A stretch of 64,000 bases of DNA from the IMG/VR virus record IMGVR_UViG_3300025117_000028, positions 62,001-126,000 of that record; one strand, given 5' to 3'. Below the pieces are notes generated by a model that was given only the letters and a program-made list of their open reading frames with translations, was not told the DNA's origin and made no database searches. The translations under genes and the position numbers were made by a program. This document shows, piece by piece, positions 38,305 to 63,966 of this stretch. Source of the stretch: a virus. How positions within the stretch are numbered: the stretch's first letter is position 1; each line of letters starts with the position of its first letter.

Positions 38305-38650
38305 TTTTTACCTCAACTATGTTATACTCAAAATTTATAATGTAATTTCGATTTAGCAAATATGATTGATTGTAATTCTCTCCATAAACAAATAAATAAT
38401 ATTGTCTTTCACTAAAGAACCATTTTATAAAATTTCTCATTTCATTGTTTTCAGTAGGTTTCTTTGAAGGATCCCAAGGTCGAATATTCCATATAGCAGA
38501 AGATCTTGGCCAACCTTCTTTAAAGTTTATTTTTAAAACTAAATCATAGATTTTGGGTTTGGGGACATCCTCTATTTGATTCTTTTTAGACTTTTCCTCT
38601 GTTGATTCTTTGCATTCACAAGGTTTTTGTTTCTTGAAAAACCATTTCAT
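38297..38650 (-). CDS. hypothetical protein, 117 aa
   Basis: N-terminus has basic residues and CECKE; a WPRSSAIWNIRPWDP stretch is notable. No family recognised. Overlaps the DUF1566-like gene stop (ATGA). Confidence 0.5.
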   Translation of the reverse strand: MKWFFKKQKPCECKESTEEKSKKNQIEDVPKPKIYDLVLKINFKEGWPRSSAIWNIRPWDPSKKPTENNEMRNFIKWFFSERQYYLFVYGENYNQSYLLNRNYIINFEYNIVEVKNG

Positions 38651-39009
38651 AGTATCTCCGTGTTTATATTAAAAAGATTTTTTAATGTTTCGAAATCAAA
38701 AGGTTGTACATACCGTACATAATAGGTGTATATATCTTTAGAATCGCAACCAAGATCTCCACATTCAAGGCTTACAAGTTCAATGTAATCGATATTGTGA
38801 TTGGGATGAGGTGTCGAAGACCAGAACCAACTCTCTGTAAATCCCCAAACTTTATCAAAAAACGCTTGTTGTAGCTCTTCACTTGTTGGAAGTCTCCAGT
38901 TGTCTTTTTCTAAGTCTTTGGCTTGAAACCAAGTCATTGGTTTTTGGGTTGGTCCCCAAATTAATCTTCTTTGGAAGTCAATTGTAAGGCCATTGATTAC
39001 TTTAAACAT
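38647..39009 (-). CDS. DUF1566/Lcl-type hypervariable protein, copy 1
   Basis: 120 aa. N-terminal block MFKVINGLTIDFQRRLIWGP, then DNWRLPTSEELQQAF, WFWSSTPH, a divergent core, and YYVRYVQP. This is the DUF1566 (C-type-lectin-related) pattern. The first 90 residues are close to copies at 43571 and 57287; the core after WSST is unique. Likely a binding or display protein; see findings. Confidence 0.65.
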   Translation of the reverse strand: MFKVINGLTIDFQRRLIWGPTQKPMTWFQAKDLEKDNWRLPTSEELQQAFFDKVWGFTESWFWSSTPHPNHNIDYIELVSLECGDLGCDSKDIYTYYVRYVQPFDFETLKNLFNINTEIL

Positions 39010-42762: not shown

Positions 42763-43116
42763 TTATAAAATTTCTATTGTAAAATTTAATTCTTTTAAAA
42801 TCAAAGAATCAAGTGGTTTTACATATCGTACATAGTAGGTAAAACATTCATCCTCGTAGTCGGTATAGCCACTATAGAAAAGTATAACCCGTGAATAACC
42901 AGTATAATTAAAGTAGGGAGATGACGACCAAAAGTAATGTGATATAAATCCAGGAACTTTATCTATACATGCTTGTTTTAATTCATCAATTGTTGGAAGT
43001 CTCCAACTGTCTTTTTCTAAGTCTTTGGCTTTATTCCAGCTTCTTGGTTCTTGGGTTAATCCCCAAACTAATTTATTCTTGAAATCGATTGTAAGACCAT
43101 TGATTACTTTAAACAT
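42763..43116 (-). CDS. DUF1566/Lcl-type hypervariable protein, copy 2
   Basis: 117 aa. MFKVINGLTIDFKNKLVWGL, DSWRLPTIDEL, YFWSSSPY, variable core, YYVRYVKP and a C-terminal DSLILKELNF block. The last 45 bases are nearly identical to copies at 51707 and 52900, while the middle 90 bases differ strongly. The stop is followed at once by the start of nrdJ. Confidence 0.65.
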   Translation of the reverse strand: MFKVINGLTIDFKNKLVWGLTQEPRSWNKAKDLEKDSWRLPTIDELKQACIDKVPGFISHYFWSSSPYFNYTGYSRVILFYSGYTDYEDECFTYYVRYVKPLDSLILKELNFTIEIL

Positions 43117-43118
43117 AT

Positions 43119-43574
43119 TTATTTTCCTGTTGAACCAAACCCACCTTTACGTATTTCTTGTTTAATCTCCAAACCTGTTCTTACGATTGGGATCAAAATA
43201 CCTTGCGCAATACGATCAAATATATTCAAAAAAATTGTTTCTTCTGTTGGGTTATAAACTGGGATTAAGATTTCATCTCTATAATCACTATCTATAACAC
43301 CACTTCCAACAAAGACTAACCCTTGTTTAGCTATTGAACTACGCAAACGAACATCTAAAAACATATTAGATGACATTTTTTTGATAAACAATCCGGTTTG
43401 CAGCATGACTATTTCTTTAGGTTTGATTAACAATTGAGAAAGACATTCTTCCCATTCTATTGGGGCAAGAATAATATCAAAAGCTGCAGAACCTGTTGTC
43501 GCATAATGGGGCATTTTTTCTGTAGGATATAATCTATCTTCTGCTACTTTTAATTCAAATATATATTCTGTCAT
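43119..43574 (-). CDS. dut: dUTP diphosphatase
   Basis: 151 aa from ATG 43574, which overlaps the upstream stop; the longer frame enters the DUF1566 gene. Family motifs: TGSAAFDI, RLRSSIAKQG, GVIDSDYRDE, FDRIAQGIL and GGFGSTG, complete for a trimeric dUTPase. It removes dUTP and supplies dUMP to ThyX. Its partner UDG lies nearby. Confidence 0.88.
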   Translation of the reverse strand: MTEYIFELKVAEDRLYPTEKMPHYATTGSAAFDIILAPIEWEECLSQLLIKPKEIVMLQTGLFIKKMSSNMFLDVRLRSSIAKQGLVFVGSGVIDSDYRDEILIPVYNPTEETIFLNIFDRIAQGILIPIVRTGLEIKQEIRKGGFGSTGK

Positions 43575-43930
43575 AATACCTCTAAGTTTTTTATAACTCC
43601 AAGCACTTCTAAAATTGAGGAGTTTAATGGTTGCACATAACGTGTAAGACAATAGTCATCTTTATAGGTGTAATAAGGTATGCCAAAACCGAAATTTACA
43701 GTCCATACATAGTCAGTGAAATTCTCATAAGGTGTCGAAGACCAGAACCAACTCTTTGTAAATCCAAGAACTTCGTCAATAAATGCTTGTTTTAATTCTT
43801 CACTTGTCGGAAGTCTCCAACCGTCTTTTTCTAAGACCTTGGCTTTATCCCAATTCATTGATCCTTGAACTGGTCCCCAAATTAATCTTCTATTAAAGTC
43901 AATTGTATAACCATTGATTTTTTTAAACAT
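43571..43930 (-). CDS. DUF1566/Lcl-type hypervariable protein, copy 3
   Basis: 119 aa. MFKKINGYTIDFNRRLIWGP, DGWRLPTSEELKQAF, WFWSSTPY, core, TRYVQP. The TGGTCTTCGACACCT stretch in the core entry is identical to copy 1 and then the two diverge. ATGA overlap with dUTPase. Confidence 0.65.
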   Translation of the reverse strand: MFKKINGYTIDFNRRLIWGPVQGSMNWDKAKVLEKDGWRLPTSEELKQAFIDEVLGFTKSWFWSSTPYENFTDYVWTVNFGFGIPYYTYKDDYCLTRYVQPLNSSILEVLGVIKNLEVL

Positions 43931-45709: not shown

Positions 45710-46012
45710 TTATGGTCGCACACAACAGATATAACGACTATTATATTTGATGTCACTTCCAATAAAATTGTGCCTTACATAATAATATTGTTTTGACATT
45801 CGACATCTAGAAGATGACCATAAAGATTTATTTTTTATATACTTTTTAATTTCTTCTGGTCCATTCTCAAATAAATCAATAAGTTCTTCTTTAGAAGGGC
45901 ATCTTCCTTTTTGTTCTTCACACTAGATTTGAGTTTTCCTCCATGACATTGACTTTTCAGAGATTGGTCCCCACTTTAATCCGGTCCTAGGATCTTTGAT
46001 CCATTCATTCAT
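45710..46012 (-). pseudogene. DUF1566-like gene with in-frame TAG, copy 4
   Basis: ATG 46010-46012 overlaps the UDG stop (ATGA). The frame gives a DUF1566-like protein (GLKWGPISEKSMSWRK, then LWSSSR, then YICCVRP) interrupted by TAG at 45923-45925, codon 30. Upstream and downstream halves align with the intact family. Either a nonsense-inactivated copy or a read-through gene; TAG acts as a stop elsewhere in the window. Confidence 0.6.
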
Positions 46013-46608
46013 TTTAAATTTTCTGTGTAAAAATTATAAAAAATCTGTGCATGTTCTTTTGCTAAGTCCATCATAGATGGGTTACGTAAAATGTATGCTG
46101 GATGCATTAACGGCATTACCTTATAAGTTTTACCTTCTAATAAATATTTTTTAACCTTACCACAATATTCTTTTACCCAATTTTGGATAACAGTATCAGT
46201 TAATGCTTGATATGTTGGCTTACCAAAAGTAATAATAAAACGCGGTTTTAATAAATTTATCATATTGTTTAAATGTGTTTTACACACATCATATTCTTCT
46301 GGCCGTGGATCTCGATCTTTAAATTGACCATTGACCATTGTTCTATGTAGGACTATATTTGTCCAAAATATATCTTTGTGAGGATCTATCCCAATAGATT
46401 CGAACATTTCATTTGCAAATTGACCACTTGGTCCTACGAATGGCAGACCTTGTTTTTGTTCTTGTTCTCCGGGTCCCATACCTATGACCATAATATCGGC
46501 CAGATAAGATCCCCGATTAACAACTATCTTAGAATTATTAGTATTTAGAGAACAAAGGGTGCAATTTTTTTCTTTAAGTTCTGTGCAATATGTTTCAAGC
46601 TGGTTCAT
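46009..46608 (-). CDS. uracil-DNA glycosylase, family 4 (Fe-S)
   Basis: 199 aa. CTLC near 16-19, GMGPGEQEQKQGLPFVGPSGQ (active-site region, near 43-63), a Cys near 109 and one near 148 suit the four-Cys Fe-S cluster of family-4 UDGs. MHPAYILRNPS matches the leucine loop. It excises uracil from DNA and complements dUTPase. Overlaps recA by 14 bases. Confidence 0.8.
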   Translation of the reverse strand: MNQLETYCTELKEKNCTLCSLNTNNSKIVVNRGSYLADIMVIGMGPGEQEQKQGLPFVGPSGQFANEMFESIGIDPHKDIFWTNIVLHRTMVNGQFKDRDPRPEEYDVCKTHLNNMINLLKPRFIITFGKPTYQALTDTVIQNWVKEYCGKVKKYLLEGKTYKVMPLMHPAYILRNPSMMDLAKEHAQIFYNFYTENLK

Positions 46609-51217: not shown

Positions 51218-51710
51218 TCAATTCTCCTTTCATTTCGTAATTATTATTATAAATATATACTTTAGGTAAATGAGCTATAATTTTTAGACTCTCGCTTTCG
51301 AAGTCTTTTGTTTTACCCAATAGACAATCATATAAGGTTTCCGACTCGCCTAAAAATATATGTAATACTTTTTTGGCGGCCATTAATTCTCTCATCTCCA
51401 TAAATGGGATAGCTGCTAAAATTGAAGCTAAAGTTCTATCAACAGTCAATAAAGTTTCATCTTCAATTAGTCTAGGAGGATTGGTGTAGATATTATCATT
51501 GATAATGCCTATAATTTTCTTGGGTTTGTTTTCAATAATAGAAGCAGTAGTAATATAAATATCTTCTGAAGGATTAACTTCTTTTACTAAACTTAAACTT
51601 TCTAGTATGTCGTTAAAGTAATATATAGTGTCTACATGAGGATTCCATTGTTTGTCTTTTAAATTTTTTCTCATTGAGAGAACTGTTTTGTATAGTAATT
51701 TTTGATTCAT
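51186..51710 (-). CDS. hypothetical protein, 174 aa
   Basis: No recognised motif. Begins within the last bases of the DUF1566 copy at 51707 (ATGA). Confidence 0.5.
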   Translation of the reverse strand: MNQKLLYKTVLSMRKNLKDKQWNPHVDTIYYFNDILESLSLVKEVNPSEDIYITTASIIENKPKKIIGIINDNIYTNPPRLIEDETLLTVDRTLASILAAIPFMEMRELMAAKKVLHIFLGESETLYDCLLGKTKDFESESLKIIAHLPKVYIYNNNYEMKGELIASYYSLLNC

Positions 51711-52060
51711 AAAATTTCCATTGTAAAATTTAATTCTTTTAAAATCAAAGAATCAAATGGTCGTATATACCGTGCTGCAAGCCTGTAAGTTTTAAGACCT
51801 TCGACAACGTAACCGTTGTCGAAATCCACGTACCATGCGTGGTCGGCGTTGTCGATAAAGGACGATGACGACCAAAACCTATCCTCTGTAAATCCAGGCA
51901 CTTTATCAAAAAACGCTTGTTTTAACTCATCTTTTACCGGAAGTCTCCAACTGTCTTTTTCTAAGTCTTTGGCTTGATTCCAAGTCATTAGTCCTTGGAC
52001 TGGTCCCCAAATTAATTTATTTTTAAAGTCGATTGTAAGGCCATTGATTTCTTTAAACAT
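51707..52060 (-). CDS. DUF1566/Lcl-type hypervariable protein, copy 5
   Basis: 117 aa. MFKEINGLTIDFKNKLIWGP, DSWRLPVKDELKQAF, RFWSSSSF, core, AARYIRP, DSLILKELNF. About half of the core codons end in C (GAC, AAC, TAC, CAC, GCC), unlike the AT-ending codons of the genome. The AWYV strand is shared exactly with copy 6. Confidence 0.65.
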   Translation of the reverse strand: MFKEINGLTIDFKNKLIWGPVQGLMTWNQAKDLEKDSWRLPVKDELKQAFFDKVPGFTEDRFWSSSSFIDNADHAWYVDFDNGYVVEGLKTYRLAARYIRPFDSLILKELNFTMEIL

Positions 52061-52899: not shown

Positions 52900-53253
52900 T
52901 TATAAAATTTCCATTGTAAAATTTAATTCTTTTAAAATCAAAGAGTCAAGCGGCCGCACACATCTTACATAATAGTCGAGAGCTTTATTATCATAGTCGG
53001 CGAAGCCGTAGCCGAGATGCACGTACCATGCGTAGTTGGTATACTTAATGAGAGACAACGATGACCAGAACCTATCTTTTGCAAATCCAGGAACTTTATC
53101 TATAAATGCTTGTTTTAATTCATCTCTTGTTGGAAGTCTCCAACCGTCTTTTTCTAAGTTCATGGCTCTACTCCAGCTTCTTGGTTCTTGGGTTAATCCC
53201 CAAACTAATTTATTCTTGAAGTCAATTGTAAAGCCATTGATTTCTTTGAACAT
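52900..53253 (-). CDS. DUF1566/Lcl-type hypervariable protein, copy 6
   Basis: 117 aa. Same frame as copy 5: MFKEINGFTIDFKNKLVWGL, DGWRLPTRDELKQAF, RFWSSLSL, core with AWYV and YYVRCVRP, then DSLILKELNF. Bases 52900-52950 match copies 5 and 2 almost exactly, while the core differs at most positions, giving a sharply bounded variable block. Confidence 0.65.
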   Translation of the reverse strand: MFKEINGFTIDFKNKLVWGLTQEPRSWSRAMNLEKDGWRLPTRDELKQAFIDKVPGFAKDRFWSSLSLIKYTNYAWYVHLGYGFADYDNKALDYYVRCVRPLDSLILKELNFTMEIL

Positions 53254-54224: not shown

Positions 54225-55721
54225 CTAAATAATTTTACCATCTTTACATACTAATACTTTTTTCTCACCATTGATGGTAGAACCTAGTATAACTGATCTT
54301 TTCCAGATTTTTTCCATATATCTCATGACTACTTCACATTCATCAAGTTTTAATTCAAGTCCAAATTCTTGAAAATCTTGATGGTTTTCATGAGCTAAAA
54401 TTAAAGCTCCAGAATCTGCAACTCCTTGTATTGTGATTCTGGGAACACCATAATCGTAGGACATAGCAGATTGTTCAAAGCAGAAATCTTCAATACTCCT
54501 ATTCTTGAGAATAACTTCCCCTGTTTCGTTATCTCTTTGCATTGTACATAAATGTAACTTGTACATAAGTTTGTCAGTTAAGTAAGTTCTATAAAAAGAT
54601 GGATCGTCTTCGAATTTAACTACTTCTAGAACTTTATCCCATCCTTTAATAGTTGCTTTAACAATGTTTCCATCTTCGTCTCGAAACCTTTGGTTGTCAT
54701 CTTGTGGATAAGGATATAATTTCATATCTTTAGGAAGGCCATTGGTATAATAGTCGTCCCATCTTTCCCAGATGTCTCTAAGAATTTTATATCCTATATA
54801 ATATGGGTTATGCCCCATACGTCCAATCATGTGTTCTTCATCCCATCCCGGATTGATGACAGCAGAATTTAATGCGGCAAAATCAACCATATCCATATCG
54901 TTTAAGTACTTTTCCATAATTACGATATGAACAAGACTTGCAAATCCTTCATTAATAGTTTTAGTTAAGAATTGAGGATAGAAATAATAACTTTCTGCTC
55001 TCACTGTTAAGAGTACATCTTTTTGCCATTCTTCTAGATCAGGTGCGTAATGCGCAAGAAACCATAATAAATCAGGTTCTTTTCTTGGAGGAAATGTTTC
55101 GTAATTCCAAGAGACTTTACTTGTTACTTGAGGGCTTTCTTGTGTTAATAAGTCAATGATATCGGGTTCCGTATAACTAATTGTCCTTTCCTTCTTGGGA
55201 TATAGTGGTCTATTCTCGCCTTTTTGGGTATATGTAAACCAATCCAAATGACGCTCAAGAGCAAATGCCATAGTGATAAAGTCTTCTACTTCTTTCTCTC
55301 CATACATTTCTTTATAACGCTCTACGCGCAAACAAGAATCAGCAGCTCTTTGTACCATATCTTTAGGTACTTTAGATAATTGAATATTGTTTTTAAAAAC
55401 ATGTGCATGACCCATGCAATGGGCAATAATTAACTTATTAGTAACTAAATTGTTACTCGCATGCATAAAGGCATAAGTGGGGTTATTATTAATAATGGTT
55501 TCTAACGCTACCATACCATATTCGCTAGCGGCTTTTTGTTGTGTCCATGTAGGAGCATAGGAGAAATGACGCATACGTAGGGGTAGCCCATAGGTTGCGA
55601 TAATCGCCATTAATTTTGGAGGAACTGTTTCCCAAATAATAGGATCCCAAGACAATCCCATTTCGTGTGCTATTTCACTAATGGCTTTTACTTCTTCGTC
55701 GATGTGTCCTTCAACGAGCAT
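54225..55721 (-). CDS. SpoVR family protein (YcgB-like)
   Basis: 498 aa from ATG 55721 with AAGGAGAAA upstream. YGLPLRMRHFSYAP, ASEYGMVALE, AFMHASNNLV and HCMGHAHVFKNN match SpoVR/YcgB, named for a Bacillus spore-cortex phenotype. In bacteria its gene lies with prkA (yeaG) and DUF444 (yeaH), as here. Biochemical role is unsettled. Confidence 0.8.
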   Translation of the reverse strand: MLVEGHIDEEVKAISEIAHEMGLSWDPIIWETVPPKLMAIIATYGLPLRMRHFSYAPTWTQQKAASEYGMVALETIINNNPTYAFMHASNNLVTNKLIIAHCMGHAHVFKNNIQLSKVPKDMVQRAADSCLRVERYKEMYGEKEVEDFITMAFALERHLDWFTYTQKGENRPLYPKKERTISYTEPDIIDLLTQESPQVTSKVSWNYETFPPRKEPDLLWFLAHYAPDLEEWQKDVLLTVRAESYYFYPQFLTKTINEGFASLVHIVIMEKYLNDMDMVDFAALNSAVINPGWDEEHMIGRMGHNPYYIGYKILRDIWERWDDYYTNGLPKDMKLYPYPQDDNQRFRDEDGNIVKATIKGWDKVLEVVKFEDDPSFYRTYLTDKLMYKLHLCTMQRDNETGEVILKNRSIEDFCFEQSAMSYDYGVPRITIQGVADSGALILAHENHQDFQEFGLELKLDECEVVMRYMEKIWKRSVILGSTINGEKKVLVCKDGKII

Positions 55722-55722
55722 C

Positions 55723-56925
55723 TTATTTCTCCTTTTTCGTTGTCCCAAAGAAGAACTGTAAGGTTTTATCTACATCTTCCTTGCCATTAATTAAAATAGC
55801 CTGGAATTTTTCATCAGTAATTTTGTTTCTAAGTAAGGAATATAATTCAGACCCTGAATTTGAGCTTACTTCCCATTGAAGTCCATAATTTCCCCATCCT
55901 AGATGTGGGTTTATCTCTCCATAACCAATCATAGAACATTTAGTTAATAACTTATCCACAAGTTTAACGTATAAGCGGTTATCATCGTCTCCCCAATTTC
56001 CACCGTCAGTTAAATGTACTATATAATTATTACATTTTGAAGGAGGGTGATGTTTGTCTATATGTTCGTCGGCTAATTTCAAAGCACTAGAACAAATAGT
56101 TCCTCCTCCCCAAGATACTTCAAAGAATTTCTTTTCTTCCTCAAACCAAGCTTGAGTATCGTGCGCAATAAAATATATATCTACTTTTTTATAATTATAT
56201 TTGAGGAATTGGACTATCCAGAAAAAGATCATTTTTGCAACGACACGAATTTCTTCAGTCATAGAACCACTGACATCCATTAATAAATAGACAGCTGCAT
56301 GAGTAGTATATTGAGGAATTTCTTCATAAGAAATTTTTACTAAATCTTCTTGTTTAAAATCTCCTACATATGCCTTTCCTGTCTCTGCTGCATTACGAAT
56401 GATATTTCTTAAAATAGTTTCTTCAATATCAGCGTTTGATATTGTATCAGTTGGCCTATAGGTGTTGTACTTTGTTTCAATAGACTCTACTGTCCTTTGC
56501 TCTTTTTCTCGTAAATTAGGAAGCCCTAACTGTCGAATCATTTCTTCGATAATGTCTTGTAAGTCAATCTCTACAGTATAAGTTGGATCTCCATGTTCAT
56601 TGCCTGCTTGTGGACCTTGTCCTTGACTAAAGGGGTCTCCAGGTTTAAGGACATCTCCTTCTTCTCCTAAAGCTTCTCCACTCGTATCAGAATAATCTGG
56701 TTGTGGTGTATCTTTGTTGGTACCCCAAATAAAACGCCTTTGTTTAATAGTCGGGATACGTACTTTAACTTTTTTGCCAGCACTATCAGATGTAATAATA
56801 TCTTCAGAGTTAATAATATCTTTCGCGCCGGATTTAATCGCTTCTTTTACACGTTCGGTATGTTTTCGCTCTTCCATATCAGTCTGGTTATTTAAATCCC
56901 AGATGTCATAGATGCTATCGCTCAT
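55723..56925 (-). CDS. DUF444/YeaH-like vWA protein
   Basis: 400 aa. DVSGSMTEE (near 218) gives the metal-site loop of a von Willebrand A domain; GGGTICSSAL lies near 275. Residues 60-130 are basic, then acidic with Gly-rich linker. DUF444/YeaH proteins always travel with PrkA in stress and stationary-phase operons. Ends two bases before the SpoVR ATG. Confidence 0.8.
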   Translation of the reverse strand: MSDSIYDIWDLNNQTDMEERKHTERVKEAIKSGAKDIINSEDIITSDSAGKKVKVRIPTIKQRRFIWGTNKDTPQPDYSDTSGEALGEEGDVLKPGDPFSQGQGPQAGNEHGDPTYTVEIDLQDIIEEMIRQLGLPNLREKEQRTVESIETKYNTYRPTDTISNADIEETILRNIIRNAAETGKAYVGDFKQEDLVKISYEEIPQYTTHAAVYLLMDVSGSMTEEIRVVAKMIFFWIVQFLKYNYKKVDIYFIAHDTQAWFEEEKKFFEVSWGGGTICSSALKLADEHIDKHHPPSKCNNYIVHLTDGGNWGDDDNRLYVKLVDKLLTKCSMIGYGEINPHLGWGNYGLQWEVSSNSGSELYSLLRNKITDEKFQAILINGKEDVDKTLQFFFGTTKKEK

Positions 56926-57290
56926 AGTTCCTCACGATTAAACCCAAGTTCTAACAGTGTGTAAGAATCGAATGGTCGTATATAACATACAAAAAGAGGT
57001 CTCTCTTTTTCTTCGTTATAAATATTACCGTCAGTTAATCTTATACACCAAGCATAGTCACCAAATTGATTACCTATGCTGTAAGCTGAATTTGTCCAGT
57101 AATAATCTTTGATAAATCCTGGAGCTTCAAGTTCCCATATTCGTTTTAGTTGTTTAGCTGTTGGTAATGTCCATTCATATTGTTCTTGTCTTAAGGCTGT
57201 CCACCAACTCATTTTAATAGACTCTAATTTCCAAATTTGTTTTCTTTCGGTGTCGATTACGAAATTTTCAATTTGTTGGAATATACTCAT
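56922..57290 (-). CDS. DUF1566-like protein, divergent, copy 7
   Basis: 122 aa. IENFVIDTERKQIWKLE, YEWTLPTAKQLKRIW, YYWTNSAYS, DYAWCIRLTDGN and CYIRPFDSYTLLELGF follow the family layout with low identity. Lies between the frameshifted copy and DUF444 (ATGA overlap), so it is part of the PrkA operon. Confidence 0.5.
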   Translation of the reverse strand: MSIFQQIENFVIDTERKQIWKLESIKMSWWTALRQEQYEWTLPTAKQLKRIWELEAPGFIKDYYWTNSAYSIGNQFGDYAWCIRLTDGNIYNEEKERPLFVCYIRPFDSYTLLELGFNREEL

Positions 57291-57642
57291 AACTTTTCCA
57301 TTATAATTCCAAATTCTTTTAAAATCAAAGAGTCAAGTGGTCTCACACGCCGCACGTAGAAGATGGAGGACCTATATCATAATAGGCATCGCCATAGAAG
57401 AGGGACACGCTCCACACATAGCTTTGAAGGTAGTAGGTGTAGAGAGATGAAGACCAGAAGCGAGCACTTTTAAATCCAGGAACTTTATCTATAAATGCTT
57501 GTCTTAACTCATCTTTTGTCGGCAATCTCCAACCGTCTTTTTCTAAGTTCATGGCTTGAAACCAAGTCATTGGTTTTTGGGTTGGTCCCCAAATTAATCT
57601 TCTTTGGAAGTCAATTGTAAGGCCATTGATTACTTTAAACAT
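57287..57642 (-). pseudogene. DUF1566/Lcl-type hypervariable gene, frameshifted, copy 8
   Basis: The open frame from ATG 57642 reads MFKVINGLTIDFQRRLIWGP, DGWRLPTKDEL, RFWSSSLY, then stops at TGA 57343-57345. In the next frame the family tail (YVRRVRPLDSLILKEF) runs to TGA at 57287-57289, overlapping copy 7. A single-base indel inside the variable core near 57358-57372 explains it. Confidence 0.65.
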
Positions 57643-57646
57643 AAAG

Positions 57647-59671
57647 TTATTTTTTAGAGGCGCGGTTCACAAAAATAGTATTAACATATTTAATTAAAGC
57701 TTCTGCGCAAGATTCACAATATCCACGTTCTTGCAATCTTTTCCTGATAGCTTTTAAAACCTTCTCTCCATCTTTACCAGGCTTAGCTTTATCTAAGTGT
57801 TTGTCGAATGGGATACGTAACGTTTGCTTTGCTTTTGAGTATAAATATTTCTCAATTGCTTCACGTAAACGATCATGAGAATTCCACTTGAATTCCCCTC
57901 CTGCTTGTGTTACTTCCCAATGTTTACGAAATATTTCATGACGGAATTCACGTTTAGATGAAGAATTTACACCAATAGCAGATTCAATTGAATTCATCAA
58001 TTCATCATCCAATGGGATTTCATTCCCCATCTCATCTCTGGGTTTTTCTTCGGATAAGAAATTATTAATATTATCAATATAACGAGAGAATAATTCTTGA
58101 GCACGACTATCGATATCGGCAAGTAGTGCTCCTGCAACAGCCTTCTCGGCCATATCGTTATATTCTTCTAGAACAGTTCCAATATGACCTAGCCATTCTT
58201 TACGTGACTCTTCTTTGACTTCAGGATTCTCTTGTAAATACTTCTTAATCTTTGCAAGAATAGTTACTGGGTTAATACATGGGAATTCTGTATTGTCATT
58301 AATTTGATCAGCCATTGCACGATTAATACAATCTACGATCTTTCTGGGTCCTAGTCCCTCGAATCCTTCTCTGGTATGTTCAAGACGTAGAGGGCGCAAA
58401 TCTGATTTGTTTAAGCCGAATACGTCTTCTCCTGCATAGAAACGGATCTTCTGTTTAAGTCCAACAGCAGATCCTTTTGGTGGCTTTAGGCGAGTAAGCA
58501 TTGCGTAAAATGCTGCCACTTCTAAAGTATGTGGAGCAATATGAATTTTATCGCGATTTTGGTTTTGACGAAGAATCTTTTGATAAATCTTTTCTTCGTC
58601 CTTATAGCTTAAACAATAAGGCCAACCAATAGTCCATACGCGATCTTGTGTTGCTTCTTCTGTTAGATCTTCCATGAACTTACGGAATTCCGATTCGTTT
58701 GTATGCGAAATAATGAGTTCGTCTACGTCGATCATGGGGAGATTTTCAATTTTTAACTGTTTCTCTTGAGTTAAACTTAGTAAATCCATTCGCATATCTT
58801 TGGAAATCTTTAAAATTTCCATAAGTTCCATGATCCCACGATTTGCGTAATTAATTTCACCGGAATAATCATAACTAAACGGATCACTTAGACCATGTTG
58901 GCTCAATGTACTAATATTTTTTGTTCCTTTGAGGTCACTAGCTTTTTGAGACTTAGGATCTCCGGGCATAAAGTTACCGATACCTTGACGCTGACTAATA
59001 CTAATCAAAAATCGTTGTGATAAGAATTTCGAAATATCATCATTCAAGAACTTAGTTAGAACCTTTGCGCAATGTGGGCATAAATGGCCTTCGATTTTGA
59101 TACCTGTTGCTGTGAAAAAGTCTTCCCTAAGTTCATCGGGTAAGGCTCGTAATGGGTCTTCATTGATAGGACAATGGTTCTTCACGAGACCATACTTGTG
59201 ACTTTCTTCGTCTGTGAATGGATACTTGATCCGGTAAATAGCACCATCATCAGTATTGCTATATTCAGCTAGATTTCTTTTAATTTTGTCAACAACATCA
59301 CTCTTTCCGCTTCCTACTGGTCCCATGAATAGGAGTAGGCGGCGGCTTGCATCACTTTTATTTGCAGCAGATTTAAGATACTGCATTAGCATGCCAATAT
59401 TATCCTGAATTCCAAAGAATTGTTTTTCAAAGAAGTCATAAATTTCAATTTTCTTTCCCTTTTCCAGGGCATATTGATCTAGTTCGTATCGAATACCATG
59501 TCGATGAATCGAATTATAGACACGCCCAGCAGCATTAGCTGCAATACTAGGCTTATTTTTAACTAATTCGATATATTCAGATAAAGAGATAGTATGTAAT
59601 TCTACCTTGAGTTTGTCGTGCTTGGCCATTAATTGAGCAAGAAGATTCTCTTTGACCTCAGTGGTTGCCAT
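57647..59671 (-). CDS. prkA: PrkA-type serine protein kinase / AAA+ protein
   Basis: 674 aa from ATG 59671, with AGGAGG immediately upstream. Walker A GPVGSGKS at 117-124; a CPHC pair near 202; the C-terminal PrkA domain follows. PrkA/YeaG is a AAA-linked Ser/Thr kinase or ATPase of stationary phase and sporulation. The reverse transcriptase gene overlaps its start by 14 bases, so they are cotranslated. Confidence 0.82.
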   Translation of the reverse strand: MATTEVKENLLAQLMAKHDKLKVELHTISLSEYIELVKNKPSIAANAAGRVYNSIHRHGIRYELDQYALEKGKKIEIYDFFEKQFFGIQDNIGMLMQYLKSAANKSDASRRLLLFMGPVGSGKSDVVDKIKRNLAEYSNTDDGAIYRIKYPFTDEESHKYGLVKNHCPINEDPLRALPDELREDFFTATGIKIEGHLCPHCAKVLTKFLNDDISKFLSQRFLISISQRQGIGNFMPGDPKSQKASDLKGTKNISTLSQHGLSDPFSYDYSGEINYANRGIMELMEILKISKDMRMDLLSLTQEKQLKIENLPMIDVDELIISHTNESEFRKFMEDLTEEATQDRVWTIGWPYCLSYKDEEKIYQKILRQNQNRDKIHIAPHTLEVAAFYAMLTRLKPPKGSAVGLKQKIRFYAGEDVFGLNKSDLRPLRLEHTREGFEGLGPRKIVDCINRAMADQINDNTEFPCINPVTILAKIKKYLQENPEVKEESRKEWLGHIGTVLEEYNDMAEKAVAGALLADIDSRAQELFSRYIDNINNFLSEEKPRDEMGNEIPLDDELMNSIESAIGVNSSSKREFRHEIFRKHWEVTQAGGEFKWNSHDRLREAIEKYLYSKAKQTLRIPFDKHLDKAKPGKDGEKVLKAIRKRLQERGYCESCAEALIKYVNTIFVNRASKK

Positions 59672-60407
59672 TATTCCTCCTGAATTTATTAAGATTATTT
59701 TGGATATGATCAAGGTCTTCTTGATTAATTTGCTGAATATAATTAAGAATGCCTAAGGAATAAGATTCTTGATTAGAATTAACTAGCTTAAGGCTTAATT
59801 TTCTTTTAGTTCTACGAGATAAAGAAATGATATTGTTTTGAACTGTTATGCCTAAGACTCCAAATTTTTCAGTTTTAGGAATAATAGACTTAACTGGGCA
59901 TTTTAAATTGCCAATTGAATAGATATTTTTGAATAAACGAATAACATTTGGAATGTTATCTCTGCGGCATGAAATAATGATGTTGTCTACATAACGAGAC
60001 CATACAAAATCTTGATGAGTTTCGTATAATGATCTTTCTAAATATTGTATAAAACATTCGGCTAAAATTGGACTTGCAGGACTACCTTGCGGTAAGCTGT
60101 TTTGATAAAAACATATATCAAGCTCTTCATTTGTTAATAAATTCGGATATAGCCTAACAAAATTTTCTTTTATAATAGAGGGGAAAAACTTTTTAATATC
60201 TAATTCTATCCAATAATCATATTCAAATGGAAAATGATAATTAATAGTATTAAGAACAGATCTGAAACTAAAAATATTTTCTTTTATAGAAATAGAATTA
60301 TATATTCTTTTATGAATTTTTTTTAATTTCACTTTTGTCTCAGGATCAGGGATATTAATGTCTCTAAATTTATTATTAACTTTTCTAAGTTTTATACTAG
60401 TATACAT
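59658..60407 (-). CDS. reverse transcriptase, short non-DGR type
   Basis: 249 aa from ATG 60407 (the frame also opens at TTG 60443). Palm motifs: WIELDIKKFFPSI (Asp70), LPQGSPASP at 105-113, and YVDN at 139-142 where most enzymes have YADD/YVDD. VLGITVQNN near 184 parallels the retron V-G-V-N strand. The SQ motif of diversity-generating RTs is absent. No extra domain. It lies behind a highly folded intergenic region, as retron RTs do; class is not decided. Confidence 0.8.
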   Translation of the reverse strand: MYTSIKLRKVNNKFRDINIPDPETKVKLKKIHKRIYNSISIKENIFSFRSVLNTINYHFPFEYDYWIELDIKKFFPSIIKENFVRLYPNLLTNEELDICFYQNSLPQGSPASPILAECFIQYLERSLYETHQDFVWSRYVDNIIISCRRDNIPNVIRLFKNIYSIGNLKCPVKSIIPKTEKFGVLGITVQNNIISLSRRTKRKLSLKLVNSNQESYSLGILNYIQQINQEDLDHIQNNLNKFRRNNGNH

Positions 60408-60436
60408 ATTTATTACATTTTTTTTTAGGAAAAGAG

Positions 60437-60735
60437 ACACCAAGACTATAAGTAATCTAAATTGATATAGTTAACAACAATCTTTAATATTGGAATTGGT
60501 CCCTATAAAGGGACTCTCCCATAGCAAAGAGGTTATTAAGTATCGCCTTAGATTACTTATAGCTATCCTTGATTTTCATCTAGATACTTGGTGTATTTCA
60601 CTCGATTCAAATTATTTGAATCGAGAACTGGCCGAGTCCAGCTGCAGTCCAGTTCTAACTAACTTTATTTGAATGTAACCATTCAAATAAATTTAGTTTG
60701 TGAAATACATTTAAGATACTTATTTCTAAGTATCT
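60437..60735 (-). ncRNA. structured RNA locus upstream of the reverse transcriptase (retron-like)
   Basis: About 280 bases without a gene carry nested perfect inverted repeats. ACACCAAG 60437-60444 pairs with 60587-60594. A 15-bp arm 60446-60460 pairs with 60548-60562, with a 6-bp hairpin 60499-60514 inside. TGTATTTCAC 60592-60601 pairs with 60700-60709, enclosing hairpins 60601-60625 (12 bp), 60624-60656 (8 bp) and 60664-60691 (12 bp). The order of a branched part, then one long hairpin, then the RT gene matches a retron msr-msd. Boundaries are inferred. Confidence 0.6.
60714..60735 (-). terminator. hairpin at the end of the ThiF gene
   Basis: AGATACTTA 60714-60722 pairs perfectly with 60727-60735 around a 4-base loop and covers the ThiF stop codon. 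No clear U-run follows on the minus strand, so it may be a processing site or part of the RNA above; the same AGATACTT also occurs at 60582-60590 and could pair alternatively. Confidence 0.35.
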
Positions 60736-61463
60736 AATGTGAAATATGTAAATTGACTATTGCTACTTAAACTAAATGTAATTTGTGTTGTTTTTAACAT
60801 TTTTGTGATAAATATTTCGCTTAATATAGCCAAAGCATGTAAAGCCGTCATCTGATTAATTAACATATTTTGTGGTGGACCATCTGCACATGAACGTTCA
60901 TGTGGTTTAGCATTATTTATTTCAGGATATAATTTCACAACATCATCTAAAATAACTTTTTGCTTATATGTTTCGTTATTAATTGGATTAGTAACAGCCA
61001 TTTGCCCTAAGTTACCTCCTAAGATAACTTGGCCTGTATCTAAATCATTGCCGCAATCCAAATAAAAATATTTGGCTTTCTTATAGCGATTTGCGCACAA
61101 AAGCCGAGCTTCGTCATTATCACAGCAACAAATTATAAGAGGGAGACAATCATAATAGTCATTCTTTATTGGTGTTTCTTTTGTTAAGAATTGAGGTTTA
61201 GCTATGATAGTTACTCCATAAGCGCGTGAGTATCTTTCTGCTAATACCTCAGCTTTATTTTTACCAATATCAGAAGCAATGAAGTTTTGTCTTAGAATAT
61301 TTTTGTCGCTAACAACATCTCCGTCCATAATATGAATATTAACTGGGCAAGATTTAAGAAATTTAATTAACCAAGGAATTAGCCAACTTCCTGTACCTCC
61401 TGCTCCAATAATTTCTATATGTCCAATGAAGTTTTGAGGTATGTTAATTAGTCCTATCTTCAT
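60726..61463 (-). CDS. ThiF/E1-like adenylating protein (PRTRC ThiF-type)
   Basis: 245 aa. The Rossmann nucleotide loop GAGGTGS (20-26), IMDGDVV with Asp47, and Arg58 in RQNF are the ATP-binding features of E1/ThiF/MoeB enzymes. CCCDNDEAR near 112 and LDCGND near 135 follow. There is no C-terminal CXXC zinc knuckle. E1-like proteins adenylate the C-terminus of a ubiquitin-like protein. Overlaps the JAMM gene (ATGA). Confidence 0.75.
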   Translation of the reverse strand: MKIGLINIPQNFIGHIEIIGAGGTGSWLIPWLIKFLKSCPVNIHIMDGDVVSDKNILRQNFIASDIGKNKAEVLAERYSRAYGVTIIAKPQFLTKETPIKNDYYDCLPLIICCCDNDEARLLCANRYKKAKYFYLDCGNDLDTGQVILGGNLGQMAVTNPINNETYKQKVILDDVVKLYPEINNAKPHERSCADGPPQNMLINQMTALHALAILSEIFITKMLKTTQITFSLSSNSQFTYFTLDT

Positions 61464-62494
61464 GGTTTGGTCGTCCTAAAGAAATCTCGACGGGTTTTTT
61501 TAGCACCGGGACAAAAGCGTTCAAAATATTCTTCTTCGTCATCTGTCAAATCTTTGACTGGTGTTGGATGAAGACCTATTGCTCGGGGTTCTATAATGGC
61601 CTTTTCAACCACTTTATAAGGCTTATCCATTGCTATTCTTGATAATGCATCTTCTGGATATGTGATACATGATAAATCATTTTCTTTTAGAATCTCTTTT
61701 AGTGTTAATTGTTCGGTGTCGAATAAGTCTTTTAAGGAAATTTTCCCTTCTTCTTTGCCCATCATACACCATCTACCAGTAAAGGTAGGATCGGTAAAGA
61801 TGTTTCCGATAACACCATAAAATCTAGTTTCTGCATTATCTTTGTCATCTGTCTCACTATGGAAAGCTCCCATAGAATTATGAGAATGAATTTGCATAAC
61901 CTGTAAGTTTTTAGACTCATGAATAGGTGATAAATATGTAATTTTGCTATCTTTCTTCTGATCGTCTTCGTCGAAATCAAAGAATTTAATAGCAGCACCA
62001 CTTATTACTTGAATAGGAATATCAAGGAAATATTTTTTAGCTTCTGTATCCCACAAAATACGTGTCATAACTTCTACATTTTGCTCGGCAATGGCACATA
62101 CGTCAGTCGCTAAGATAAAACTTTGAAGTAATAACTCAATTGGAATTTTAGGAAGTAGGTAAACAAATCCATTCTCTTTAATAGAATTTTCGGTATATAG
62201 TAACGGTTCATCATACCCATGTGCCTTCTTCATAAAGAGAGCAAATTTTTGATATTCAACGCGATAAATACCGTTCTCTTGTATAGAATAAGCCACTGGA
62301 TGTTTAAGCGCAATAAAATCTTGAGCTGATCCTCCTAATACTTTAGGAATATATTTTGCCGCTAATTTATTTGTGGAAATAGTAGCAGGAGAAATAAGCT
62401 TACTTAAACTTTCTCTTTTTTTCTGAATCAAAGATTTAACTTTGTCATTATTTTCGCGTAGTTCATCAGATAAAAAGTAGAATTTCTTATCCAT
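61460..62494 (-). CDS. JAMM/JAB-domain metalloprotease (PRTRC A-like)
   Basis: 344 aa. The JAMM motif HSHNSMGAFHSETD has His203, His205, Ser213 and Asp216 in exact H-x-H-x7-S-x2-D spacing; Glu141 is a candidate catalytic acid. Residues 1-130 form an N-terminal domain of unknown fold. JAMM proteases trim or remove ubiquitin-like proteins. Sits between the E1-like and PRTRC-B-like genes with overlaps of 4 and 1 bases. Confidence 0.75.
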   Translation of the reverse strand: MDKKFYFLSDELRENNDKVKSLIQKKRESLSKLISPATISTNKLAAKYIPKVLGGSAQDFIALKHPVAYSIQENGIYRVEYQKFALFMKKAHGYDEPLLYTENSIKENGFVYLLPKIPIELLLQSFILATDVCAIAEQNVEVMTRILWDTEAKKYFLDIPIQVISGAAIKFFDFDEDDQKKDSKITYLSPIHESKNLQVMQIHSHNSMGAFHSETDDKDNAETRFYGVIGNIFTDPTFTGRWCMMGKEEGKISLKDLFDTEQLTLKEILKENDLSCITYPEDALSRIAMDKPYKVVEKAIIEPRAIGLHPTPVKDLTDDEEEYFERFCPGAKKTRRDFFRTTKP

Positions 62495-63177
62495 TAGATA
62501 ACTCCATCTATGTTATTGTTACGCAACCATACACGAAGATTTCCAATGCTATTTAAAGCATTATTTGGGAAAATTTTTCCACATAATGTTTGAGCTAATT
62601 CTTTTTGACCGTAATTTTGGTATTCGGCTATCACTGGTTTTTGATATAAATCATCATTAAATGTAGAAGATAGAAAATTATTAATAATTCCGATAGCACT
62701 TTCAATTCCATTTAAAACATGCTCAGTTGATCCCCAGCAAATTTTTCCATCATTATATGTATTACCATATGGCCAATGGTAGATTTCGGTACTTTGAGTC
62801 AGGGCATAATGTTTTAAACATATACAATAAGTATATGTGCTTGAACCAGCTTTAACAAATACAAATAAGGTGATAGGGATAGGAACATTATCAATTGCCT
62901 CAACAGCTGCACCTGTTCTTTTGTTATGGTAATTATAAGTTAATAAACTTGCTGGGTATGTAAATAAAAGAATTTCTTTATTGAGATTTCTGGTGTAATA
63001 AGAAATACCAAAACTATGAAAAGGGCCTAATTTAACTTCTTGTTTATCAACGAAGAAATTAGCAATTAAATGATCTGGAATTGTTTTATATATAATTTCA
63101 TTAGAGGCAGAAATAAATTTTGCATTAACTTCGCTTGAATTTTCTTCTAAAGTTAATATTAATTTTGAGTTATTCAT
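62494..63177 (-). CDS. PRTRC protein B-like / prokaryotic E2-like candidate
   Basis: 227 aa. YHWPYGNTYNDGKICWGS at 133-150 resembles the conserved centre of PRTRC system protein B, a family described as prokaryotic E2-like, with Cys147 as a possible thioester residue. AGAGGAAAG precedes the ATG. It overlaps the JAMM gene start by one base. The family match is from memory of the pattern, so moderate. Confidence 0.55.
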   Translation of the reverse strand: MNNSKLILTLEENSSEVNAKFISASNEIIYKTIPDHLIANFFVDKQEVKLGPFHSFGISYYTRNLNKEILLFTYPASLLTYNYHNKRTGAAVEAIDNVPIPITLFVFVKAGSSTYTYCICLKHYALTQSTEIYHWPYGNTYNDGKICWGSTEHVLNGIESAIGIINNFLSSTFNDDLYQKPVIAEYQNYGQKELAQTLCGKIFPNNALNSIGNLRVWLRNNNIDGVI

Positions 63178-63186
63178 TCTTTCCTC

Positions 63187-63966
63187 TTAAAGCCCATAAG
63201 TGATTACGTTGTTAATGTCTGTTACGAGAACGTTTGGAGGGGCAAATAAATTGCCGTCTATATAAAGAACTGAATTTTTATTTATGGCTTCTAATAAAAT
63301 TTTTAGATAAAGCGGTTGAGTTGTATCAATTTTGTTAATGTTATAACAAGTTCTATCAATCTCTAAAATATGAGTTAGTTTATTTGGTTGCCATACGTTA
63401 AACTCATAAACAATATTTTTAAATGTTGCTTTGATCTTTTTTGCTGTACTTCGTTGCAAATTATTACTACAAGATATTAAATAATTAAATACTTGTTCTG
63501 TTACGTCTATAGAAAGAGAATTCAACAATTGATTATTTATAATTTTATAACCTAAAGCTATATTAGGATTTTTTGTTGTTAATTTATTTTTAATATTCAT
63601 CAGAACATTAAAATCTTGTAGTATATTAATATTTTGATTTTCGTTTATTAAACAATAATCATAAATATTAAATAATTGTTCTGTAGTTGCACAATCAAAT
63701 AGGGCATGTGAACTTATCATAAAATTTGTAGACGTTAAATGAATTTGATTAACAGTAGGATTCGTTTTAAGGGCTTCTAAAATAGTTTCAGTCTTTTTAA
63801 GTAAATTGAGAAGTCCTCGTTTATTGCAATTTTCCATTCCTGGAATCGTTATTCGCATTCTTTCAATTCTTTTTTTATCTTCTGGAGTTAATGAAGTTAA
63901 AAATTTAGCAAAATTTTCTAAGATATTGTAAAACCCAATTACATCTTCTATCTCTATGGTATTCAT
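63187..63966 (-). CDS. hypothetical protein of the PRTRC-like cassette, 259 aa
   Basis: Rich in Asn, Ile and Leu, mostly helical, no motif recognised. ATG 63966 overlaps an upstream stop and GGAGAC precedes it. By position it could be the counterpart of another PRTRC component (such as F), but no sequence evidence supports this. Confidence 0.5.
   Translation of the reverse strand: MNTIEIEDVIGFYNILENFAKFLTSLTPEDKKRIERMRITIPGMENCNKRGLLNLLKKTETILEALKTNPTVNQIHLTSTNFMISSHALFDCATTEQLFNIYDYCLINENQNINILQDFNVLMNIKNKLTTKNPNIALGYKIINNQLLNSLSIDVTEQVFNYLISCSNNLQRSTAKKIKATFKNIVYEFNVWQPNKLTHILEIDRTCYNINKIDTTQPLYLKILLEAINKNSVLYIDGNLFAPPNVLVTDINNVITYGL

Follow-up and report, generated by a model that had tools for sequence, protein, structure and literature searches.

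We have analyzed a 64,000-nucleotide stretch of DNA from a large phage of metagenomic origin, positions 62,001 to 126,000 of the IMG/VR record IMGVR_UViG_3300025117_000028; this stretch is referred to here as the window. The analysis concerns a short reverse transcriptase (RT) gene on the minus strand and the densely folded non-coding region directly upstream of it. Upstream of this region, on the same strand, are genes for a ThiF protein and for JAB-like and E2-like proteins, and the end of the RT gene overlaps the start of a PrkA-type gene. The features are summarized in Table 1. On the evidence presented below, the locus is probably a phage-encoded RT-RNA module that is retron-like in plan.

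Table 1. Features of the RT locus and of the Lcl_C family in the window (window coordinates)
Feature	Position	Strand	Evidence or remarks
PrkA-type AAA protein	57647..59671	minus	ATG at 59671; start overlaps RT stop by 14 nt
Retron-type RT	59658..60407	minus	249 amino acids from ATG at 60407; RVT_1, profiles, tree, fold
Predicted non-coding RNA, msr-msd-like, densely folded	60411..60737	minus	between ThiF stop and RT start; folding and inverted repeats
Predicted msd-like domain	60437..60594	minus	8-bp closing stem 60587-60594/60437-60444 around long hairpin with 15-bp perfect stem 60548-60562/60446-60460
Predicted branched domain, three hairpins (about 60657-60698, 60624-60656, 60601-60625)	60592..60709	minus	closed by 60700-60709/60592-60601 (10 bp)
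Hairpin 1, 9 bp, GAAA loop	60714..60735	minus	overlaps ThiF stop codon 60726-60728
Candidate a1 strand	60742..60750	minus	pairs with candidate a2 60403-60411 (holds RT ATG); not above chance
PRTRC-type ThiF, E1-like adenylyltransferase	60726..61463	minus	Pfam ThiF 60.6 bits (cut-off 28.1), TIGR03736 114.7 (144.75), PADLOC E1-E2 models E 4e-8
JAB-like, PRTRC protein A-like	61460..62494	minus	Pfam Prok-JAB 23.3 bits (cut-off 25), TIGR03735 42 (101.8)
E2-like, PRTRC protein B-like	62494..63177	minus	Pfam Prok-E2_D 34.9 bits (cut-off 25), TIGR03737 22.8 (131.45)
Codirectional next gene	63187..63966	minus	no family above cut-off (Pfam, NCBIfam)
Lcl_C genes	38647-39009, 42763-43116, 43571-43930, 51707-52060, 52900-53253, 56922-57290, 57343-57642		remaining matches in L213/L214

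The RT frame can be extended to 59658-60443 on the minus strand by an alternative TTG start at 60443. Its motifs include LDIKKFFPS (motif A), LPQGSPASP, YVDN (motif C) and a region-Y-like VLGITV; LPQGSPASP and YVDN are both seen in the sequence and the SQ motif of diversity-generating retroelements (DGRs) is not, as the initial annotation had stated. The match to Pfam RVT_1 scored 54.8 bits (cut-off 29.6). Among NCBIfam profiles retron_St85_RT ranked first with 97.1 bits, ahead of the TIR retron (53.6), group II (40.7) and Drt3a (32.3) profiles. The PADLOC search was led by RT_II-A (96.2) and RT_III-A (95.5), numbered types that we take to be retron types, and the first non-retron name among the 25 matches listed was UG17 (53.0). 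A structure model was built from an alignment of the window RT and six viral RTs (predicted local distance difference test, pLDDT, 73; predicted template modelling score, pTM, 0.63). When this model was searched against PDB folds, the 12 best matches were all retron complexes (TM to query 0.57-0.62), headed by the Ec86 retron; DRT9 RTs followed at ranks 13 and 16-20 and the first DGR structure at rank 25. Two trees were computed from retron-type, DGR and group II sequences, a large one of 95 rows (98 minus L066, L076 and one group II row; L numbers denote loci and records) and a smaller one of 31 rows picked by hand. The window RT fell inside the retron-type clade in both, with Shimodaira-Hasegawa-like likelihood ratio (SH-aLRT) values of 100 and 99, respectively. 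Constrained trees with the RT among the DGR or group II sequences, the check proposed at the outset, were rejected by the approximately unbiased test (p-AU 0.0118 and 0.0121). Profile, fold and tree thus support the grouping of this RT with retron RTs and not with those of DGRs or group II, in agreement with the retron-like gene order and RT type first proposed. Its exact place in the retron-type clade is unsure; it is a long branch (2.18) without a firm sister, and L013, its closest match by identity in the trees, is 28-30% identical.

The closest known systems by profile are the type II-A or St85-like retrons (NF038233, PADLOC RT_II-A), with which the window shares the folded stretch directly upstream of the RT. 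The window RT is shorter, as the initial annotation had remarked (249 amino acids against a model of 289 positions), and differs from them in having YVDN, and VLG in place of VTG. The motif C Asn is indeed unusual: of the 93 RTs whose YxDD box was found by the search pattern, 4 have Asn at its last position (the window, L027, L030 and L067). The phage RT at L030 (2930-5885) has YADN, a gap that folds at a z of about -7, and a DUF2201 metallopeptidase/VWA gene as neighbour. An alternative reading of the profile and fold matches is a defence-type RT (DRT, UG or Abi-like) that would use an upstream non-coding RNA as template in a chemistry other than the synthesis of multicopy single-stranded DNA (msDNA). 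The large structured stretch ahead of the RT and the DRT9 enzymes among the fold matches would suit such an enzyme, but the retron profiles score 96-97 bits, where UG17 reaches 53 and Drt3a 32 to 42. With this comparison resting on profiles, since Abi/UG sequences lie outside the trees, we consider a defence-type RT improbable.

The stop codon of ThiF and the ATG of the RT are separated by 318 nt of non-coding sequence, in which, leaving aside the TTG extension of the RT, no minus-strand open reading frame of more than 24 amino acids was found. Read along the minus strand, the predicted RNA consists of the GAAA hairpin, the three-hairpin domain and the long-hairpin domain, followed by the RT. 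The nested inverted repeats of the initial annotation proved exact at both closing stems, which overlap by 3 nt (60592-60594). Between 60400 and 60750 there are 12 perfect inverted repeats with arms of at least 8, some of them mutually alternative pairings; 300 dinucleotide shuffles gave 1.5 on average and never more than 8. The longest arm is 15 and the longest in the shuffles 13. The minimum free energy of this segment is -124.9 kcal/mol (z -11.9), and that of 60411-60737 is -116.5 (z -10.0). The opposite strand of the gap folds nearly as stably (-106.4, z -10.3), and the strand of the predicted RNA is therefore assigned by co-orientation with the RT and not by energy. No Rfam family was matched at its gathering score in the window, and a search of the gap at E values up to 10 gave only matches far below gathering scores (best E 0.056), none of them credible. 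The arm sequences of hairpin 1 (60714-60736) recur at 60537-60544 and 60581-60589, allowing alternative pairings and possibly a conformational switch.

As a control, the same code was used to fold 351 nt of upstream sequence from each of 78 other RT loci; L060 was left out for its little upstream DNA. The window is the most folded of the 79 loci (z -13.3 on this measure) and is followed by L022 (z -11.2), whose RT is near-identical, by eye, to that of Ec86. Other members of the L022 clade scored between -4.1 and -5.0 (L029, L032, L043, L046) or +0.9 (L041). Many of the 78 control loci lie near zero, so that strong folding is not automatic upstream of RTs. The region upstream of the window RT is no less structured than that of a known retron. 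It differs from Ec86 in its separate three-hairpin domain and separately closed long hairpin, and in an outer stem that is not significant.

The window RT is an orphan, its best relative having about 30% identity. The only close homologues of the RT or of ThiF in viral contigs are those of IMGVR_UViG_3300025073_000028, which is 100% identical where compared and is another assembly of the same virus. No DNA relatives were found among phage records. Searches for the RT in phage and plasmid collections returned 3 and 19 records, respectively, all distant, and a scan with the RTs of L014-L016 yielded these three RTs themselves and nothing more. Searches by sequence or by alignment gave distant RTs only, in viral contigs, phages and plasmids and, among the matches listed, in genomes. 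Scans for RT relatives were evaluated on the best 80 of 168, of 185 and of 373 confirmed relatives. The last of these scans used 12 members of a group of phage RTs, many of them of about 380 amino acids, that forms its own clade in the 95-row tree; the 80 loci kept are L234-L313.

In this clade a ThiF gene lies upstream of the RT, on the same strand, at 71 of the 80 loci (the corresponding count in another scan was 22/80; both include near-identical contigs). At seven of the nine remaining loci the upstream DNA is shorter than 1.2 kb; at the other two, L258 and L295, it extends for 4 kb and contains no ThiF. Because five ThiF genes, including that of the window, went into the ThiF profile, its matches to these five follow from the way it was made, and two of their records recur among the 80 loci. 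In 20 of 20 records the sole ThiF match is within 5 kb of a same-strand RT, and three of these records have a second RT elsewhere. These 20 (15 records of the clade, L014, L015, L019, L177 and the window) were chosen in the knowledge that ThiF is near the RT, and the count shows only that the match is the sole one in each record. Like the window, the clade loci have an E1-like gene, a gap and a retron-type RT on one strand, but the RTs are mostly of about 380 amino acids and the gaps are less folded. Three ThiF proteins of the clade were scanned, and ThiS-type ThiF models scored above PRTRC_ThiF. A JAB partner is not established for the clade: the presumed JAB-like protein of L245 matched Prok-JAB below cut-off, and those of L234 and L277 matched nothing. 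RNase H was found as a possible partner at 5 of the 80 loci only, and not in the window record.

The gaps between ThiF and RT were delimited at 50 loci; they measure 240-700 nt, and 48 are distinct. In each distinct gap, the 110 nt that follow ThiF were compared with a 66-nt segment whose end lies 9 nt short of the RT start. The longest run of perfect complementarity averaged 7.56 bp within a locus, 6.20 bp between loci and 6.14 bp when the 3' part was shuffled. A run of at least 8 bp was present in half (50%) of the own pairs but in 9.5% of the cross pairs; the observed sum of stem lengths was reached by none of 5000 permutations of partners, and the own stem exceeded its shuffled mean in 36/48 gaps. 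For the 39 gaps of at least 300 nt, the mean stem was 7.85 with the own end and 6.26 with the middle of the gap. A perfect end stem of at least 8 bp is present in 24 of the 48 gaps, in 22 different sequences, and its 3' strand stops 9-35 nt short of the ATG (the test allows no less than 9). These end stems have the a1/a2 layout of retrons, which compensatory change has preserved at roughly half of these loci. Two members of the clade, L069 (4563-4718) and L081 (4553-4709), share 95% identity across about 4 kb, yet in the middle of the gap their sequences are unrelated for ~155 nt, with sharp borders, as would fit a replaceable msd-like core. The L081 segment was also tried as a possible template for a site elsewhere; in five such phage records it matched, apart from itself, nothing longer than short stretches.

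The hairpins of the window might also be thought independent of the RT, as terminators or processing sites that end the ThiF operon. The first hairpin does overlap the ThiF stop codon, and the folded gap is not constant in close relatives of the RT. However, no terminator-like site was found in the gap, the structure extends over about 300 nt, and the order of ThiF, gap and RT recurs in other phages together with co-varying gap ends. An origin of the hairpins unrelated to the RT is thus most improbable.

A number of observations weigh against the retron-like reading of the window. The window RNA has no homologue besides the identical copy and consequently offers no covariation of its own, and the window gap and the gaps of the ThiF clade have no detectable sequence in common among the loci compared. 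The 9-bp outer a1/a2 stem is at chance level, 208 of 1000 shuffles reaching 9 bp. The gap of L013, the row closest to the window RT in both trees, is 180 nt long and has a z of only -0.9; the ThiF-clade gaps are mostly far less folded than that of the window (L038 -4.8, L070 -4.5, L069 -1.5, L081 -1.2, L017 -0.7, L175 +0.8); and L015 and L177 have no gap ahead of the RT. All scores of the window RT with NCBIfam retron profiles are below the curated cut-offs. No ribosome-binding site is evident by eye ahead of its ATG, and YVDN is without the second catalytic Asp of the YxDD box. The signatures of retron RTs, NAxxH in region X and VTG in region Y, are degenerate in the alignments, where they appear as NTINYH and VLG with the H and G kept; VLG or ILG replaces VTG in L013-L016 as well. 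YVDN alone is no proof of inactivity, because GDN stands in place of GDD in some active RNA polymerases. The first proposal, of a retron-like or new RT-RNA system, is thus partly supported: it holds for gene order and RT clade, and the outer stem drawn in the window does not exceed chance. Its covariation check is answered indirectly, through the related clade of phage RTs in which the gene order is the same. We do not apply the label of canonical retron, because the window departs from YxDD, VTG and NAxxH and its outer stem is unproven.

The same irregularities could mark a degenerate or dead retron remnant, whose folded stretch would be kept as a leader controlling translation of the RT and PrkA. 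YVDN, the degenerate motifs and the long branch are all in line with decay, and translational control would suit both the position of the RT start codon, which sits within a predicted stem, and the overlap with PrkA. Against this, the frame is intact within a compact phage operon; the motif A Asp, LPQGSPASP and the first Asp of motif C are retained; and the inverted repeats are still perfect, which counts against a remnant because neutral decay would erode them. We regard a remnant as unlikely.

The initial annotation had reported no typical retron effector next to the RT and had named PrkA and a ThiF cassette as mere neighbours. No known effector was found beside the RT, where ThiF, JAB-like, E2-like and PrkA genes lie instead, but the ThiF cassette looks like the partner rather than a bystander. 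The row of JAB-like, ThiF and E2-like genes resembles the PRTRC system (TIGR03735, TIGR03736 and TIGR03737), with an RT added and with the other PRTRC proteins not established. ThiF and Prok-E2_D pass their Pfam cut-offs and Prok-JAB does not. A PADLOC scan of the four proteins encoded upstream of the RT matched ThiF alone. PRTRC A-like, B-like and ThiF genes accompany short retron-type RTs in the window, L014, L015 and L019, and A-like and ThiF genes do so in L177, all of these matches being below the curated NCBIfam cut-offs. In L014 and L015, ThiF is more than 4 kb downstream of the RT. The gap fold z for RTs near PRTRC-type genes is -9.7 in L014, -7.8 in L016, -3.1 in L019, -1.8 in L015 and -1.3 in L177. 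Candidates for a small ubiquitin-like protein in the window, L014 and L177 matched no PRTRC family. One such candidate, at 322-504 of L213 (minus strand), is suggested by its size, position and C-terminal Gly only. On the other side of the RT, PrkA occurs in this phage together with genes of the DUF444 (55723-56925) and SpoVR (54225-55748) families, with Lcl_C genes between them; this set is a trio like YeaG/YeaH/YcgB.

The Lcl_C genes bear the signature of a DGR. The family has 18 matches in the 190-kb record, 12 of them above the family cut-off, and two frames are truncated or split. Within the last ~45 codons, 366/406 codons of the hypervariable columns have C or T as their third base. Among fourfold-degenerate codons, 117/127 in hypervariable columns end in a pyrimidine, compared with 56/108 in equally variable columns upstream and 45/151 in the less variable columns of the same region. 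Such an NNY bias is a mark of adenine-directed mutagenesis by DGRs. One exact 33-nt pattern from the scaffold of the Lcl_C repeat was matched in IMG/VR by this virus and L222 alone. A decayed copy lies between genes at 45714-46020 of the window (minus strand), with an in-frame stop and a weak match to the variable repeat (E 0.45), and in L213 (19247-19687; G000 145247-145687) an Lcl_C gene is split by a frame change just ahead of a fresh-looking variable region.

The window RT, which is the only RT in the record and like that of BPP-1 is a phage RT, could accordingly be taken for the mutagenic enzyme of these genes, in a non-canonical DGR. It has QGSPASP in place of the SQ motif, however, and lies outside the DGR clade in trees that reject a DGR grouping. 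No template repeat was found in the 190-kb record with a profile of the variable repeat (nhmmer --max), and the gap has no credible match to the variable repeat or elsewhere in the record. Moreover, none of the 15 RT-bearing records of relatives that were searched has an Lcl_C match, although such absences are weakened by the possible incompleteness of the records, all of them, that of the window included, being linear. It is unlikely that the window RT acts as the Lcl_C mutator, and a DGR of this kind is a very remote explanation of the locus. The DGR absent from the linear record may lie outside it or in the host, or may have been lost. DGRs with remote targets are described as escaping metagenome mining (PMC8144416).

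We return to the retron-like module and to how it might work. Orientation and gene overlaps suggest that the E2-like, JAB-like and ThiF genes, the folded stretch and the RT are co-transcribed on the minus strand. By analogy with retrons, the RT would bind the RNA and reverse-transcribe a portion, with the terminal long hairpin as the likeliest template, into a small cDNA that remains attached. The recurrent adjacency to ThiF suggests that the particle of RT, RNA and cDNA could serve as sensor or scaffold for the ThiF, E2 and JAB enzymes, which would take the place of a toxin, perhaps in conflict with rival phages or host defences. It is thus conceivable, if still short of probable, that the ThiF and conjugation genes are the effector of the module. 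Equally tentatively, we propose a class of such loci in large phages, in which a ubiquitin-like E1, joined by JAB-like and E2-like proteins in the PRTRC-type phages, replaces the retron effector; RT, cDNA and conjugation enzymes would make up a single machine whose RNA core is swapped between close relatives. Replacement of a retron effector, by HipA/DUF3037, appears in one report (PMC12548924). A text on jumbo phages (PMC7824862) mentions neither ThiF, PRTRC nor retrons, and no account of a link between ThiF and RTs was found in the literature searched, a search that most subscription papers lay beyond.

Retrons have been studied as bacterial weapons against phages, armed with toxin effectors. 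A retron-type RT with a folded RNA inside a ubiquitin-like operon of a phage, and the pairing of ThiF with such RTs in dozens of large phages, suggest that phages employ DNA made by an RT together with protein tagging. For the PRTRC genes, which are poorly understood, the RT would be a partner open to testing, and these phages would be a new source of compact RTs.

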